A stretch of 64,000 nt of DNA. Source: Geobacteraceae bacterium. GTDB taxonomy: Bacteria > Desulfobacterota > Desulfuromonadia > Geobacterales > Geobacteraceae. The position numbers were made by a program, and so were the translations under genes. Of this stretch, positions 51,789 through 58,931 are shown one piece after another. The stretch is from positions 128,838 through 192,837 of the forward strand of contig WSYB01000021.1 in the NCBI GenBank assembly GCA_009773645.1, given 5' to 3'. Below the pieces are notes generated by a model. The model was not told where the DNA came from, searched no databases, and saw nothing but the letters and a program-made list of their open reading frames with translations. Within the stretch, counting starts at the first letter, position 1. Each line of letters starts with the position of its first letter.

Positions 51789-52610
51789 TTAACGCTTGAA
51801 CTTTCTCCGCAGGAGCCCGAACCCGGCAAGACCCGCGCCAAAGAGGATGAAAGTGGACGGCTCGGGGACCGTATTGGTATTGTTATCTATCGGCCGCAGG
51901 TTCGGGTCAAACCAGATGTGGTGGTTGTTTACCACTCCGGAAATGCCGGCCAGAGTCGATCCCTGGAGGATTTCACCGTTGGACAGGCCGTCGCCGAAGC
52001 CGACCGCGGCCTCTGTCCCGCCGAAGCCGCCGGAACCGCCACTTGCGTCACCGGTTTCCCACTGCATGGTTTTCCAGAAGAAGCCGATGTTCCCTTCCCC
52101 GACGGGTACCGCATAACCAGGGCCGCGGAGGACGAGCTGGAAGCTGTCCAGCTTGTCCGCATGGCTTGCGAAATAGCCTACCTGATCCCAGGTGACGATT
52201 ATCTGGTTGGTGATGTCGTTGCGCAGATACACCAGGCCGCTTGCCGAGTTGCGGGTGTCCACGTCCGCGAAGAACGGCGAGATGATCGGCTGCGTGGCCC
52301 CCTGCGGACCGCTCGGCGTGAAAGACCCTAAGGGCCCGTTAAAGGTGATGTTTCCGTTGTTGTTGATATAGAACTGCGTGTAGTTCTGGCCGAAAAAGGG
52401 GAGGGTAAACCCGAGCGATAAAGCGCCGGTGGAATGATCATCGTTCCGGGCCATTACGGAACTGCCGATCCCTCCGCCGATGATGTCGGTGTAGTACTGG
52501 GTCGAGGGGGTCAGCGCGCTTTGGGGAATAGTAACCACCGTGGCGTGTGCGGTCCACGCCGTTCCCAGTGCGCACAAAGTCAAACCAAGAATTTTTAATA
52601 GTTTTTTCAT
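51789..52610 (-). CDS. PEP-CTERM protein with nidogen-like domain
   Basis: The 273-residue exported protein has a signal peptide (to AHATV). A nidogen-like (NIDO) domain spans about 30-215 (LGFTLPFFGQNYTQFYINNNG, then ISPFFADVDTRN and NQIIVTWDQVGYF, EAAVGFGDGL). The sorting tail is VPEPSTFILFGAGLAGFGLLRRKFKR: the PEP motif, a hydrophobic helix and a basic end. The tail marks export through the exosortase system. The ribosome site AAAGGAGC and a sigma-54 promoter upstream fit the regulation known for such proteins. No exosortase gene is in the window. Confidence 0.9.
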   Translation of the reverse strand: MKKLLKILGLTLCALGTAWTAHATVVTIPQSALTPSTQYYTDIIGGGIGSSVMARNDDHSTGALSLGFTLPFFGQNYTQFYINNNGNITFNGPLGSFTPSGPQGATQPIISPFFADVDTRNSASGLVYLRNDITNQIIVTWDQVGYFASHADKLDSFQLVLRGPGYAVPVGEGNIGFFWKTMQWETGDASGGSGGFGGTEAAVGFGDGLSNGEILQGSTLAGISGVVNNHHIWFDPNLRPIDNNTNTVPEPSTFILFGAGLAGFGLLRRKFKR

Positions 52611-53158: not shown

Positions 53159-55537
53159 CTACCTCATCTTTACTACGGTCACACCGCTTCCTCCTTCGAA
53201 CGGCTCTCCGCCGCGGAACTCTCTCACCAGGGGATGGCCGTCGAGGAATTCGCGCACCCCCCGCATGAGAGCGCCGGTGCCGATGCCGTGGATGATCCTC
53301 ACCTCCCCGATCCCCGCCAGCGAGGCATGGTTGAGGAGCGGCTCGATCCGCGCCAGTGCCTCATCGACCCGCAGCCCCACCAGGTTGAGCCGGGTCTCGG
53401 CCTCCTCTTCCGTCACCTTCCGGGAGGTCTTCACCGCCTTGGCGGCTTTTCCCTTTTTCGGGGCCACCCCGACAAGCGGCACGTCGATCTCCAGGCTTCC
53501 CGCCTTCACCCTTACTCTTTCATGCCTGCGGTCAAGGGATACTACCTGCGCGTCGTAGCCGAGGGACTTGACAAAAACTGTGGCCCCCTCCCGAATCTCG
53601 TCCGGGGCAAGGGAAGGCTCCGGGCGGAGCGCCTGCAGCTTCTCCTCCATCTGCCGCTCCTTCTCCTCGAGCATTTTCAGGGCCTCGCGGCGCTTTTCCC
53701 GTTTCACTTCTTCCAACACGGCACGCGCGTCACGTCTTGCCGCCTGGATAACGTCGCGCGCTTCGCTGTACGCCTTCTCCAGGGTCTCCCTTTTTTCCCT
53801 CTCGGCGGCAGCAAGCCTCTCGGAGAGGAGTCTCTCCTTTTCCTCCAGTTCCCTCTCTATCCTCTCCACGTCACAGAGCGCCTCTGCGTGCCTCCTGCTC
53901 TGTTCCTGCAGATCCGCCAGGAGTTCGTGAAATTCGGTATCCATCCGGCCGAGCATCCCCTTGGCAAAGTCGATGATCCGCTCGGGGAGGCCGTAGCGCC
54001 GGGCGATCTCGATGGCGTGCGACTGTCCCGGCTCCCCCGTCTTCAGTCGGTAGCGGGGAGTCAGCGTCTCCCGGTCGAACTCCATGGAGGCGTTGACCAT
54101 CCCTTCGGTCCTGTGGACAAAGCCGACAATATCGGTCAGGTGGGTGGTGGCACATACCAGTGCCCCCTTGTCCTGCAAATCTTTCAGGATCGCGCAAGCA
54201 ATGGCGGCTCCCTGGAGCGGCTCGGTGCCGGTCCCGAGCTCATCCAGCAGCACCACCGTGCGCGCGTCTGCCCGGCCCAGGATTCCCGTGATCCTTGATA
54301 TGTGACCAGAGAAGGTGGAGAGGCTGCTCTCGATGGACTGTTCATCGCCGATATCCACGAGAAGCTCGGAGGCCAGAGGAAAGACGGATGAAGAGGCCGC
54401 AGTAACAGGGATCCCGGCGAGCGCCATGATGAGGAGAAGCCCGGCAGTCTTGATGGCGATGGTCTTGCCGCCGGCGTTGGGACCGGTGATGACCATCACC
54501 CTGTTCAGATCCGGCTTTTTCCGGATAACTGCGTCGGCTTCGTCGTCGCCGAGGGAGAGGTCGAGAGGTACCACCTCGCGCCCTTCCCCTTCCCGCTGAA
54601 GAAGCATGAGAATGGGGTGCCGCGCCTCCTTGAGCCTGATGGCAGGCGCATCGGTGATGCGGGGGGCCTCCGCCCGGAGCAGGTCGGCAAACCGTGCGAT
54701 GCTGTTCAGGCAATCCAGGCGGACGAGGGTCGCAAACTGGGCCTCGATGTCGTCCGCCTCCTCCCTGATCCACCGGCAGATCTCCCGCAGAATGCGGATC
54801 TCTTCGACCTTCACCTCCGCGATCAGGTTCTCCAGTTCATTGGCCAGGCCGATAATCTCCAGAGGCTCCATGAAGGCGGTCTCGCCGGAATTGGAGACGT
54901 CATGCACCACACCCTGAATCATTCCCTTGGAATCCATCCGCACCGGGATGACCCATCTCCCCGCCCGCTGGGTAATGAAGTCGTCCTGGAGGAAGATGGC
55001 GGTCTGTTTTTCCCGGACGATCTCCTCCAGCTTCTTCCGGATCCGTGCCGTCAGGTTCCTTTTCCTGGTCCTGAGCTCAAAAAGGAGCTTTGATGCCGTG
55101 TCGAGGATATTCCCCTCGCGGTCGACGGAATGGACGAGGGACTCGAGAATGCCGGGGAACCCCGTAAGCCCGCCCGCAAGTTCCTGCAGAAGCGGGATGT
55201 CCTTCCGGTAGGCGAGCTGCTTGGCAATGTCGGACATGGTCTCCAGGACCGGTACAAACACGGCCATGTCGCGGGGATCGAGAACTGCTCCCTCCGGGCG
55301 AACCGCCGCCATGACCGGCGAGATATCCTGAAACGGGGAGAGCCTTAAGGGAGCCCCCACCTGGGAGAGCCTTCTGATCTCCTCAACCCGGCCGAACCGC
55401 TTTTCTATCTCCTGCCGGGTCTGGAGCGGCACGATGTCCAGCACCGCCTGTTGCGAAGCGTCGCTGTTGGCAAAGTCGGCGATTGCGTGGAGGATCTTGT
55501 CGAATTCGAGGGTAATTAGCGTCTCTTTTCTTACCAA
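53159..55537 (-). CDS. mutS2: MutS2 (endonuclease/ribosome-collision protein), TTG start
   Basis: The 792-residue protein has a core MutS ATPase with Walker A GPNAGGKTIAIKT and Walker B TVVLLDELGTGTEP. A long coiled coil (SRRHAEALCDVERIERELEEKERLL) and a KOW-like region follow. The C-terminal Smr domain has NLVGLRVDEALARIEPLL and IHGIGTGALM. MutS2 suppresses homologous recombination and, in Bacillus, splits collided ribosomes. The TTG at 55537 is preceded by AAAGGATG and gives the family N-terminus (VRKETLITLEFDKIL); the longer frame is not supported. Confidence 0.93.
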   Translation of the reverse strand: MVRKETLITLEFDKILHAIADFANSDASQQAVLDIVPLQTRQEIEKRFGRVEEIRRLSQVGAPLRLSPFQDISPVMAAVRPEGAVLDPRDMAVFVPVLETMSDIAKQLAYRKDIPLLQELAGGLTGFPGILESLVHSVDREGNILDTASKLLFELRTRKRNLTARIRKKLEEIVREKQTAIFLQDDFITQRAGRWVIPVRMDSKGMIQGVVHDVSNSGETAFMEPLEIIGLANELENLIAEVKVEEIRILREICRWIREEADDIEAQFATLVRLDCLNSIARFADLLRAEAPRITDAPAIRLKEARHPILMLLQREGEGREVVPLDLSLGDDEADAVIRKKPDLNRVMVITGPNAGGKTIAIKTAGLLLIMALAGIPVTAASSSVFPLASELLVDIGDEQSIESSLSTFSGHISRITGILGRADARTVVLLDELGTGTEPLQGAAIACAILKDLQDKGALVCATTHLTDIVGFVHRTEGMVNASMEFDRETLTPRYRLKTGEPGQSHAIEIARRYGLPERIIDFAKGMLGRMDTEFHELLADLQEQSRRHAEALCDVERIERELEEKERLLSERLAAAEREKRETLEKAYSEARDVIQAARRDARAVLEEVKREKRREALKMLEEKERQMEEKLQALRPEPSLAPDEIREGATVFVKSLGYDAQVVSLDRRHERVRVKAGSLEIDVPLVGVAPKKGKAAKAVKTSRKVTEEEAETRLNLVGLRVDEALARIEPLLNHASLAGIGEVRIIHGIGTGALMRGVREFLDGHPLVREFRGGEPFEGGSGVTVVKMR

Positions 55538-55553
55538 TTTACATCCTTTGTAC

Positions 55554-55613
55554 GTGAAAGGTGAAAGGTGAAAGGTGAATAAATCCTCCTCACTCCTCAC
55601 TCCTCACTCTTCA
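55554..55613. repeat. Two period-7 arrays (GTGAAAG x4, CTCCTCA x4)
   Basis: GTGAAAG three times plus GTGAATA (55554-55581) is followed by CTCCTCA three times plus CTCTTCA (55586-55613). The second array overlaps the last codons of the GGQ-protein gene and supplies its stop context. Confidence 0.75.
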
Positions 55614-55974
55614 CCTTGCCGTTATCGTACTTTGCACGCCCTTTCCTTTTTCGCCGCGCCTTCTGCCTGCGGAGCTTATCAAGCTTCTGGTCACGGGAAG
55701 CCGTGGCGCCCGCGAGCGCCTCGATCCGCTCCGCCAGTTCGCGGCGGGCGAGAAAGCGATTTATGGACTGGCTCCTCTCACGCATGCACTTTACTTCAAT
55801 GCCGGTGGGAAGATGCTTCAGGTAGACGCAGGTGGAGGTCTTGTTCACGTGCTGCCCCCCCTTGCCCGAAGAACGGACGAATCGCTCCTCCATATCCTCT
55901 TCCCGGATACCGAGCTCCTCCATCTTCTCCAGGAGCCGCCGGTTTTTCTCTTCGTTTACGGCAAATGAGGGCAT
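55597..55974 (-). CDS. GGQ-motif peptidyl-tRNA hydrolase-like protein (release-factor family)
   Basis: The 125-residue protein is of the release-factor-like, ArfB/YaeJ-type size class. It lacks the stop-codon-reading domain. It keeps VRSSGKGGQHVNKTSTCVYL, with the GGQ tripeptide that hydrolyses peptidyl-tRNA in the ribosome. It ends in a basic tail (KLRRQKARRKRKGRAKYD) like those that enter the empty mRNA channel. A role in rescue of stalled ribosomes is therefore likely. The start overlaps the end of the upstream CPDase-HAD gene by 19 bp, so translation is coupled. Confidence 0.85.
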   Translation of the reverse strand: MPSFAVNEEKNRRLLEKMEELGIREEDMEERFVRSSGKGGQHVNKTSTCVYLKHLPTGIEVKCMRERSQSINRFLARRELAERIEALAGATASRDQKLDKLRRQKARRKRKGRAKYDNGKVKSEE

Positions 55975-57179
55975 CTGTGCGATCTGTCCGTGCGGATGTG
56001 AGTGGGTCCTGAAATGAGACTATCACAAGTTCGGGTAAAGCAAAAGCCCTTCTCCAGCTCGACAATGAAACGTCCCTCGTCCTCAAACAGCAGGGCCTGC
56101 AACCCCCGCGATCCGGCCCGCTCCACGTTCGACGGCATGTCATCCACAAAAAGGGCTTCGCAAGGGAGGACATTCAGGGTGTGAACGACGTCATCGAAGA
56201 CAGTCGCGTCCCGTTTCCCTTTTCCCAGACAATAGCTGTTGAAGACCCGGTCGAACTCCCGAAAGAAATGATCGCGGGTGTCGAGCCGTTCCAACCAGTC
56301 GGTCTGATCGCTCAGGATGGCGCAAATAACCCCCTGCTTCCGCAAGGCACGGACCAGCTCAAGCATCCGGGGGCGAAGGATGAAGCGTGACAGGACCTCG
56401 CGGGAAAGCTCCTCGTCTACACCCTTTATCCCCGCCAGCTTACGCATCAGCGCCCAGAAGTCCGCCTCGCTCCCCCGTCCCAGGACGTAGCCCGAGTCGT
56501 AGACCGCGTCCATGCCGATCCGGTGCACCTCCAGGGGGTCGAGCCTCTGACGCCGGGCGATTGCATGGAGCCCCTCGCGGAACCCCTCCTCGGCCAGCAC
56601 CCCGCCGAAGTCGAAGAGAGCCGTCCTGACAGGCGTCTTCCTTCCCTTTTCTCGCAGTTTCACACTGACGACGGTCTCCCACATTCCGGTGTCGCGCCAC
56701 CCCTCATGGAGGTTCTGCGGAGCAACGACCTTTACCTCGTCAAAGCAGATCACGGATCTGTCAAGCACAATCCGGCGCGCCAGGGCCTCCTTCTCCCGGA
56801 GAGGCATATCCTTGTACATGAGGCTCAGGTGGGGAACGAGCTGGTAGCCGGAGTCCTCCCCGCCCGCCTTTATCCGCTCAAAGATCACGCGGAGTGTCTC
56901 ATTTTCTTCGAACTCGATGAAGAGGGTTTTGAAGAATTCCTCGCTCCAGCCGATTCCGCTAACGACAAGGGGAAAGGGCTCCATCCCCTCCACAGCGGCA
57001 GCCACCACCCTTTCCAGCGCATCAAGGTCGGTGAACATTCCCGAATAGACCGTCACGTGGGGTTCGAACGGGGGTGCTTCGAACTTGCTGCTCAGTTCCT
57101 GAATGAGCGCTTCGGCATACGTGAAGTCGTTGCCGGACGGAGTGAGAAAGACGGAACACCGCTTTGGCAAATTCTTCAT
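55956..57179 (-). CDS. Fused cyclic phosphodiesterase-like and HAD phosphatase protein
   Basis: The 407-residue protein has two joined enzymes. Residues about 1-180 are a 2H-phosphoesterase of the CPDase (cyclic phosphodiesterase-like) type, with the two His-x-Thr/Ser signatures PHVTVYSG and PHLSLMYKDM. Residues about 185-400 are a HAD hydrolase, with motif I LFDFGGVLAEE, motif II ILSDQT, motif III Lys in LGKGKRD and motif IV FVDDMPSNVE. CPDases open 2',3'-cyclic phosphates or ADP-ribose 1'',2''-cyclic phosphate, and HAD proteins remove phosphates, so one chain could perform both steps. This is inference. The start at 57179 has AAGGGG; an alternative ATG is at 57212. It overlaps the GGQ gene. 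Confidence 0.75.
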   Translation of the reverse strand: MKNLPKRCSVFLTPSGNDFTYAEALIQELSSKFEAPPFEPHVTVYSGMFTDLDALERVVAAAVEGMEPFPLVVSGIGWSEEFFKTLFIEFEENETLRVIFERIKAGGEDSGYQLVPHLSLMYKDMPLREKEALARRIVLDRSVICFDEVKVVAPQNLHEGWRDTGMWETVVSVKLREKGRKTPVRTALFDFGGVLAEEGFREGLHAIARRQRLDPLEVHRIGMDAVYDSGYVLGRGSEADFWALMRKLAGIKGVDEELSREVLSRFILRPRMLELVRALRKQGVICAILSDQTDWLERLDTRDHFFREFDRVFNSYCLGKGKRDATVFDDVVHTLNVLPCEALFVDDMPSNVERAGSRGLQALLFEDEGRFIVELEKGFCFTRTCDSLISGPTHIRTDRSHRCPHLP

Positions 57180-57262
57180 GGCCCCTTCCCCTGAACATAT
57201 CCCGTTTGTCATGGCAAAACCTCGATCCTAGGAGTCTGTAACACTTGATACAACGCCTAATT

Positions 57263-57336: not shown

Positions 57337-58701
57337 CTAGAACCCGATGACGCCGGTCGGCACCTGATTCCAGAAGGTGACGATGCCGTTGTGCCACTTG
57401 ACGACCTGAACGCTCCCGTCCTGGGAAACGACGATGGCGATGGCGTCATGCAATTCGTGGCAAAGACGGTAGGCTGCGCGATGGCGGGTGCCGACCCCCT
57501 CGCTCCGCTCGAGGACCGTCTGTTCCCCCTCATTGTCGAGTGCCCGGGCGACCGTTTCCACCTTATCGATATCGCCCGAGATAACGGCGCCGAAGCCGAG
57601 AAGTTCATGCCGCTTGGACATGACCACCGCCCCATCGACCGCCGCAAGGCCGGCTATGAGGTGGGCGACCTCGAAGAGGGCCTTATCGAGGCGGGCGAGC
57701 TCTTCACCCTTGCTGCCGGCGTAATCGCGCCATCCGATGACCCGCTGCGGGCTTACGGGGTCGGCGCAGACCGCAGCAAAGGTGTTCATGATCGCGACAA
57801 GGAGGGTGCGGAAGCGCTGACGGGGTTCCTCCTCGGTGAACTGGTACTTGATGGTCATGTAGCGGTTTTCACAGCAGAGGGCTGCGGCCTGCTCCTGGGG
57901 GAGGTAGATGAGTGTCCCGCCGTGGCGGGTATTACGGATGTTGCTGATGATGCGCTTCACCACCTGCTGGCTCAAGGTCTTGATGAAATTCGGGTCGAGT
58001 TCCGCCCAGGGGGCCTTCGCCTGTCCGCGGGCTTCCCGGTGGAGGGCGAGAAGTTCGGCGCGGACAGAGGCGAAACTATCCGGGAGCCAGCGGGAAGTAA
58101 AGATATCTTGGGACGGACAGTTGATCTGCCCGCCGTTCAACGAAGCGACCATGACCGACCCCCGGCAGACTGCGATACGTCCGGGGCCGGTCACATAGAG
58201 TACGAGCGACGGAGGAAGAGGAACGGCTGTTTTCTTTCCGCCGTAAAACGACTGCATCCAGCGCGGTCCGGAGTGGACAAGCCCCCACATCTGGATTCCC
58301 TTTGCCGGGTCGACCCGGACTCCAATGAGGGACCGGTAAAAATCGGCGGCGGGGGAGAGGCGCTGCAGCTCATATTCGTTGAAGGGACGTGGTTCGGTGA
58401 AGATCAGCCGGTGGAGGCCGTCGGGCGGCCCCTCACCGGCGACAAAAAGCTCCGGCTCCCTGACGATGAGCCGGAAGTTGACCGGCCGCTCCTCCTCATG
58501 CATCAGGCTCGCCTGGTAGCAGGTGGAAATCAGCCGTTCAAGCAGTGGGGGATCAGGCAGCCGGTCGGAAAGACCTTCCATCCCCCTCCCCTCATCCTCC
58601 GCCGGCGCCACCGGTTCATCCCACCGTTCAAGGAGAAACGAAACCAGCTCCTGCGGATAGGCGTGCATTACTTTGATTTCGCCGCACGGCACTCTATCCA
58701 T
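57337..58701 (-). CDS. Diadenylate cyclase with DACNV-type sensor region
   Basis: The 454-residue protein ends in a DisA-N/DAC domain (about 335-450). It has the two nucleotide-binding motifs, Asp-Gly-Ala at 356-358 (LAAVDGAVVMSK) and Arg-His-Arg at 406-408 (GVGTRHRAAYRL), required for making cyclic di-AMP from ATP. The preceding 330 residues (including IRNTRHGGTLIYLPQE near 255-270) match the arrangement described for DACNV sensor-domain proteins, with no membrane segments. The start at 58701 has GGAGGGGG. The ligand sensed is unknown. Confidence 0.8.
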   Translation of the reverse strand: MDRVPCGEIKVMHAYPQELVSFLLERWDEPVAPAEDEGRGMEGLSDRLPDPPLLERLISTCYQASLMHEEERPVNFRLIVREPELFVAGEGPPDGLHRLIFTEPRPFNEYELQRLSPAADFYRSLIGVRVDPAKGIQMWGLVHSGPRWMQSFYGGKKTAVPLPPSLVLYVTGPGRIAVCRGSVMVASLNGGQINCPSQDIFTSRWLPDSFASVRAELLALHREARGQAKAPWAELDPNFIKTLSQQVVKRIISNIRNTRHGGTLIYLPQEQAAALCCENRYMTIKYQFTEEEPRQRFRTLLVAIMNTFAAVCADPVSPQRVIGWRDYAGSKGEELARLDKALFEVAHLIAGLAAVDGAVVMSKRHELLGFGAVISGDIDKVETVARALDNEGEQTVLERSEGVGTRHRAAYRLCHELHDAIAIVVSQDGSVQVVKWHNGIVTFWNQVPTGVIGF

Positions 58702-58931
58702 TTCCCCCTCCGGTTTTCCATTTATACACAACGTCAATTCTGACGTTGTATTATGTAGTTGTGCATAAAGTATATCAACAAAACAGGCAAGGCACCGTTT
58801 TAAAACGCGAAGCGCCGTGAAGTTTTTTTCGTCCTTCACGGACAACAAGGAAGCTTTCCGGTTGCGTCGCAAAATATCCGTGTTACCATTCTCCAAACCG
58901 GTTTCAAATCCTATCGGACCCGGAGGTAGCA

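Follow-up and report, generated by a model that had tools for sequence, protein, structure and literature searches.

Organization of the locus

The window analysed here comprises 64,000 nucleotides of a Geobacteraceae genome (hereafter G000), and the genes of interest lie side by side on its minus strand (Table 1). A gene that joins a cyclic phosphodiesterase (CPDase) domain of the 2H type to a HAD phosphatase-like domain is followed by a peptide-release gene with a GGQ motif and then by mutS2. The preliminary description of this DNA, whose range (55597-57179) ends at the start of the fusion and spans the whole GGQ gene, had reported that the fusion overlaps the GGQ gene and precedes mutS2; both points are confirmed, the overlap amounting to 19 bp from the stop and start codons. 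A longer fusion starting at 57212 is also possible, and the purine-rich stretch GGGGAAGGGG directly precedes the ATG at 57179.

Table 1. Features of the fusion–GGQ–mutS2 locus in window coordinates
Feature	Position	Strand	Remarks
CPDase–HAD fusion gene	55956..57179	minus	407 aa; open ORF; Pfam
2H cyclic phosphodiesterase domain	56685..57155	minus	residues 9-165 of fusion; H41 and H117
HAD phosphatase-like domain	56049..56630	minus	residues 184-377; PF00702, YihX-type alignment, alignment of ~30 homologues
C-terminal tail of fusion	55956..56048	minus	residues 378-407; no counterpart in the G018 fusion
GGQ peptide-release gene, mtRF-R (C12orf65) type	55597..55974	minus	125 aa; GGQ at residues 39-41
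Two heptamer arrays	55554..55614	minus	GTGAAAG x3.7 and CTCCTCA/TGAGGAG x4.1; around the GGQ stop and the gap to mutS2
mutS2	53159..55540	minus	~793 aa; TIGR01069; downstream of GGQ gene

The second heptamer array reads TGAGGAG on the coding strand, a stop codon plus a Shine-Dalgarno-like sequence. The arrays were not found in the GGQ–mutS2 loci of related genomes, and they possibly represent a variable spacer. A scan for promoters and terminators yielded nothing above chance, and a library of defence systems gave zero matches to the four proteins of the locus. The minus strand also encodes, at 57337-58776, a protein combining a DACNV sensor with a DAC (c-di-AMP synthase) domain in which the DGA and RHR motifs are retained, a 66% identical copy of which lies near the CPDase gene of the related genome G001, and, at 51789-52610, a secreted protein with the PEP-CTERM-like C-terminus VPEPSTFILFGAGLAGFGLLRRKF.

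The CPDase–HAD fusion

Is the fusion a genuine gene? Its frame is open and the same architecture occurs in a second genome (G018), and we therefore rejected a frameshift or assembly artefact; the CPDase halves of the two fusions differ in history, however, as described below. The CPDase–HAD fusion is a real single ORF.

The N-terminal domain matches the CPDase family above the curated Pfam cut-off (PF07823, E = 1e-11), and its best solved relative is the plant CPDase 1fsi (E = 2.3e-8). In common with the plant and bacterial CPDases of this 2H family, it has two PHxT/SL motifs, PHVTV (His41) and PHLSL (His117). Both are invariant in all eight aligned CPDase homologues, so that the changed histidines named in the preliminary description as a possible sign of an inactive phosphodiesterase half were not encountered. 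Unlike the CPDases of the 1fsi type, the fusion adds a HAD phosphatase, belongs to a genome without KptA, and is rare in its order.

The C-terminal half matches PF00702 over residues 184-348 (E = 3.7e-9, also above the curated cut-off), with the phosphatase domains of soluble epoxide hydrolases and the glucose-1-phosphatase YihX as its best solved relatives. The nucleophile Asp190, Ser290, Lys322, and the acidic pair Asp346/Asp347 are essentially invariant in an alignment of about 30 homologues. In HAD motif I, an aspartate is usual two residues past the nucleophile. The fusion has DFGGV here, with glycine in place of the second aspartate of the HAD-IA DxD, and the alignment places glycine at the same position of YihX. 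The domain thus resembles the HAD-IA proteins of the YihX/epoxide-hydrolase N-domain type in its Asp, Ser, Lys, DD, and D+2 Gly, and differs from the YihX-type proteins in lying C-terminal to a CPDase. The earlier claim of one chain with the CPDase signatures and a complete HAD phosphatase therefore holds for both domains, their motifs, and the single ORF, while the glycine qualifies the word “complete”.

The GGQ protein and MutS2

The only Pfam domain of the GGQ protein is the RF-1 domain (PF00472, E = 1.2e-24), and it thus lacks a codon-recognition domain; the GGQ motif is invariant among the aligned homologues. Its best sequence match in the PDB is human mtRF-R/C12orf65 (7a5h_C, E = 4.8e-19), as compared to about 5e-6 for ArfB, and the NCBIfam ArfB model scores 50.9 bits against a cut-off of 100. 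In the predicted structure (pLDDT 82), strands at residues 47-54 and 60-63 are followed by helices at residues 69-87 and 93-123, the inserted helix αi is missing, and the C-terminal helix is rich in Lys and Arg. The model superposes on mtRF-R bound to the split mitoribosome (7a5h) with a TMt of 0.72 over 103 columns (rmsd 2.9, 37% identity). Some RF1 chains precede mtRF-R by Foldseek E-value, yet with fewer columns and a poorer superposition. Judged by these sequence and model comparisons, the GGQ protein is of the mtRF-R type, and neither PrfH nor ArfB. It shares with mtRF-R the missing codon-recognition part, the missing extra helix, and the long basic C-terminal helix, and differs in being bacterial and encoded in tandem with mutS2.

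MutS2 scores 764 bits with TIGR01069 (cut-off 400). In an alignment of 21 sequences, its Walker A and Walker B motifs are intact and HGxGTG is kept, while LNLVG replaces the DxH/DLR motifs of its SMR domain, which are lost in all 21; it therefore lacks the DxH catalytic motif of SMR endonucleases of the SmrB type. Non-nuclease MutS2 proteins have been described (PMC10897456), and the MutS2 proteins of this clade are alike in their motif loss. As in the Bacillus subtilis MutS2–RqcH system of ribosome-associated quality control (RQC; PMC10897456, PMC11633108), the ATPase motifs are intact and the SMR domain has no nuclease motif; unlike in that system, RqcH is absent and a GGQ release-factor gene adjoins mutS2.

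Conservation of the GGQ–mutS2 pair and absence of RqcH

We searched 58 related genomes (G000 and 57 others) and a sample of 395 genomes from the phylum. Among the related genomes, the GGQ gene is present in 57 and mutS2 in all 58, and of the 57 genomes having both, 41 have them next to each other in the same orientation, an association stronger than the preliminary description knew. The matches end 2-405 bp apart, and the ORFs overlap in several genomes. The GGQ gene and mutS2 are thus a real conserved unit at this locus, and a more interesting result than the fusion.

RqcH (PF05833) was not above the cut-off in G000 or its 57 relatives, with positive controls detected. In the phylum sample, the GGQ gene occurs in 80 genomes and RqcH in 63, with no genome containing both as compared to 12.8 expected (Fisher p = 2e-7, a genome-level value inflated by the relatedness of the genomes). 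At the family level, 23 families have the GGQ gene and 17 have RqcH, and none has both against 3.7 expected (p ~0.01); phylogenetic signal may be an alternative cause of this exclusion. The association between the GGQ gene and MutS2 is weak across the phylum: 61 of the 80 GGQ-bearing genomes have MutS2, the other 19 being without a match at the strict cut-off of E = 1e-80, and in many genomes the two genes lie apart. A 65-aa S4-domain protein encoded in G000 (contig C55) was considered as an equivalent of RqcP/MTRES1 and is not claimed as such; we take it to be YbcJ-like rather than RqcP-like.

Distribution of the fusion and its halves

How common is the fusion? The complete form occurs in only two of the 58 related genomes, G000 and G018, with no further case among the 395 phylum genomes, and the GGQ–mutS2 order is the common part of the arrangement. 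In G018, the fusion and the GGQ–mutS2 pair are on separate contigs, the fusion having genes for CstA and a TPR protein as its neighbours, so that fusion, GGQ gene, and mutS2 are linked in G000 alone. Six relatives have a match to the CPDase half without this HAD domain, and in five of them it lies away from the GGQ gene. In G001, a single alcohol dehydrogenase gene separates a single CPDase gene from the GGQ gene, and the locus, with its DAC protein, CPDase, GGQ, and mutS2 genes, shows synteny to the window. The conserved neighbourhood anticipated in the preliminary description is therefore not borne out. Since the G018 fusion lies elsewhere and has no counterpart of the tail that forms the overlap, we infer that the fusion came to lie beside the GGQ–mutS2 pair recently, as a lineage-specific juxtaposition rather than a conserved module.

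The two halves differ in their relationships. In the CPDase tree, the G018 half is sister to that of a third genome, G002 (support 99/100), while in the HAD tree the G000 and G018 halves are sisters (support 86/96). The G002 CPDase is fused not to a HAD domain but to a divergent domain with a predicted macrodomain fold (L090:5508-6587). The model of this C-terminal domain (mean pLDDT 72) has macroH2A, PARP14, and TTHA0132 among its best fold matches; Pfam Macro is sub-threshold (E = 0.024), the usual NAAN is replaced in a loop of low model confidence, and a profile of the domain found no match among PDB sequences, whereas the fold search did. Standalone relatives of the domain occur in two other genomes (G047 and G055). 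The tree sisterhoods together with the macrodomain partner indicate that related CPDases were joined to partners repeatedly, or that one half was exchanged. Repeated joining of a CPDase to domains that might perform the next step suggests coupled reactions.

The HAD subfamily consists mostly of single-domain genes in Desulfobacterota and some Gammaproteobacteria MAGs. Strong matches to the HAD half occur in 45 of the 395 phylum genomes, none of which covers the CPDase half. In G122, a HAD of the same subfamily carries a fused SLOG domain of the circularly permuted YpsA type (cpYpsA; L131:5054-6145; PF12694, E = 4.6e-54), and in G104 one adjoins a Nudix gene. The neighbourhoods of the HAD gene in 16 genomes have no recurrent partner except in one family (f38; L143, L193-L196), where the GGQ gene is followed by a co-directional HAD gene: a single intervening gene, encoding a putative membrane transporter, separates the two in two genomes, and the distance is about 8 kb in three. 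This linkage hints that HAD and GGQ are perhaps not wholly unrelated.

Proposed roles of the fusion and of the GGQ–mutS2 pair

Do the three genes act together? On the sequence evidence, we lean slightly towards a bifunctional fusion and a separate GGQ–mutS2 splitting and release unit, which would be neighbours only. The preliminary description had instead proposed that the fusion, the GGQ protein, and MutS2 jointly deal with RNA damage and stalled ribosomes; in such a module, the fusion would repair RNA ends bearing a cyclic phosphate or remove by-products of RNA ligation. The gene overlap, the G001 locus, and the HAD–GGQ linkage in one distant family speak for such a module, and there are precedents: prfH–RtcB pairs link rescue with RNA repair, and eukaryotic C12orf65-like proteins are fused to the MJ1316 domain, for which recognition of cyclic RNA ends has been described (PMC6514570). 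The prfH–RtcB pairs are comparable in the idea of a GGQ factor coupled with RNA-end chemistry; unlike in those pairs, the GGQ protein here is not PrfH and the coupling to a CPDase is not conserved. The fusion adjoins the GGQ gene in one of 58 genomes, the GGQ gene is present in 57 of them as compared to a full CPDase match in only eight, the overlap is formed by a tail missing from the sole other fusion, and KptA is absent. A common module is thus highly improbable. The GGQ protein could also be an ordinary ArfB-like factor for non-stop rescue, its linkage to mutS2 reflecting neutral operon inertia. Both belong to one superfamily, weaker ArfB matches exist, and roughly one genome in four lacks the adjacency. 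We nevertheless consider this unlikely: the mtRF-R match is better by 13 orders of magnitude in E-value, the model lacks a helix between the last two strands and matches the full-length mtRF-R fold, and several relatives have weaker short-ORF matches (115-177 aa) that appear to be distinct ArfB genes.

For the fusion itself, the best reading is an enzyme with predicted two-step activity on a cyclic phosphate. This reading builds on the conservation of both active sites, the recurrence of CPDases with a HAD domain or a macrodomain fold, and the HAD–SLOG fusion. A more specific form of it is the salvage of ADP-ribose, in which the CPDase would convert ADP-ribose 1'',2''-cyclic phosphate (Appr>p) to ADP-ribose 1''-phosphate and the HAD domain, replacing a Poa1-type macrodomain phosphatase, would yield ADP-ribose and phosphate. 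The macrodomain fold on the sister CPDase and the SLOG and Nudix associations fit the breakdown of a nucleotide-derived cyclic phosphate with Appr>p as the leading candidate; the closeness of the HAD domain to YihX, a phosphatase of anomeric sugar phosphates, and the presence of plant CPDase 1fsi among the relatives point the same way. KptA is the known source of Appr>p. It is absent from all 58 related genomes, which were searched with positive controls, and the macro-like domain lacks NAAN. We therefore regard Appr>p as a tentative assignment, less likely than not, and rate the general two-step chemistry higher. The earlier proposal that the fusion opens a cyclic phosphate and removes the resulting phosphate is supported by the sequence motifs, while its tRNA-splicing substrate is left without a known source.

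Ribosome splitting: MutS2 would sense collided ribosomes and split them by ATP hydrolysis with the mRNA uncut, leaving peptidyl-tRNA on the 50S subunit. Co-occurrence of MutS2 and RqcH has been described (PMC11633108), and the mechanism of peptide release after splitting by MutS2 is stated to be unknown (PMC10897456).

Peptide release: In place of the RqcH branch of RQC, the mtRF-R-like GGQ protein would then hydrolyse the peptidyl-tRNA on the 50S subunit. Its action on the split large subunit is suggested by the linkage to mutS2 and by analogy with mtRF-R, which acts on split large subunits (PMC8786322). The conserved linkage, the mtRF-R type, the motif state, and the absence of RqcH together point to this RqcH-free route. 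The full picture, in which MutS2 of RqcH-less bacteria splits collided ribosomes and the peptide is then released on the free 50S subunit by the neighbouring GGQ protein, as a counterpart of human mitochondrial RQC, with a salvage enzyme placed alongside in G000, seems to us a serious possibility with slightly less than an even chance. A 2021 review describes bacterial RQC on split subunits as not mediated by release factors (PMC8786322), and the release-factor survey by Burroughs and Aravind regards C12orf65 as a eukaryotic protein and makes no mention of MutS2 (PMC6514570). We found no published pairing of MutS2 with C12orf65 in the open-access literature, and an earlier description elsewhere is possible. 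The mtRF-R–mutS2 pair in RqcH-less bacteria is a direct, genetically testable candidate for peptide release after splitting.

Cyclic-phosphate breakdown: The substrate of the 2H domain would be a small sugar derived from a nucleotide, most likely Appr>p or a 2',3'-cyclic nucleotide, whose cyclic phosphate this domain would open, and the YihX-like HAD domain would then take off the resulting phosphomonoester. A search of open-access papers found no CPDase–HAD architecture. The fusion is a rare new combination of known parts, in which a 2H phosphoesterase and a HAD phosphatase would be coupled for a two-step cyclic-phosphate reaction.
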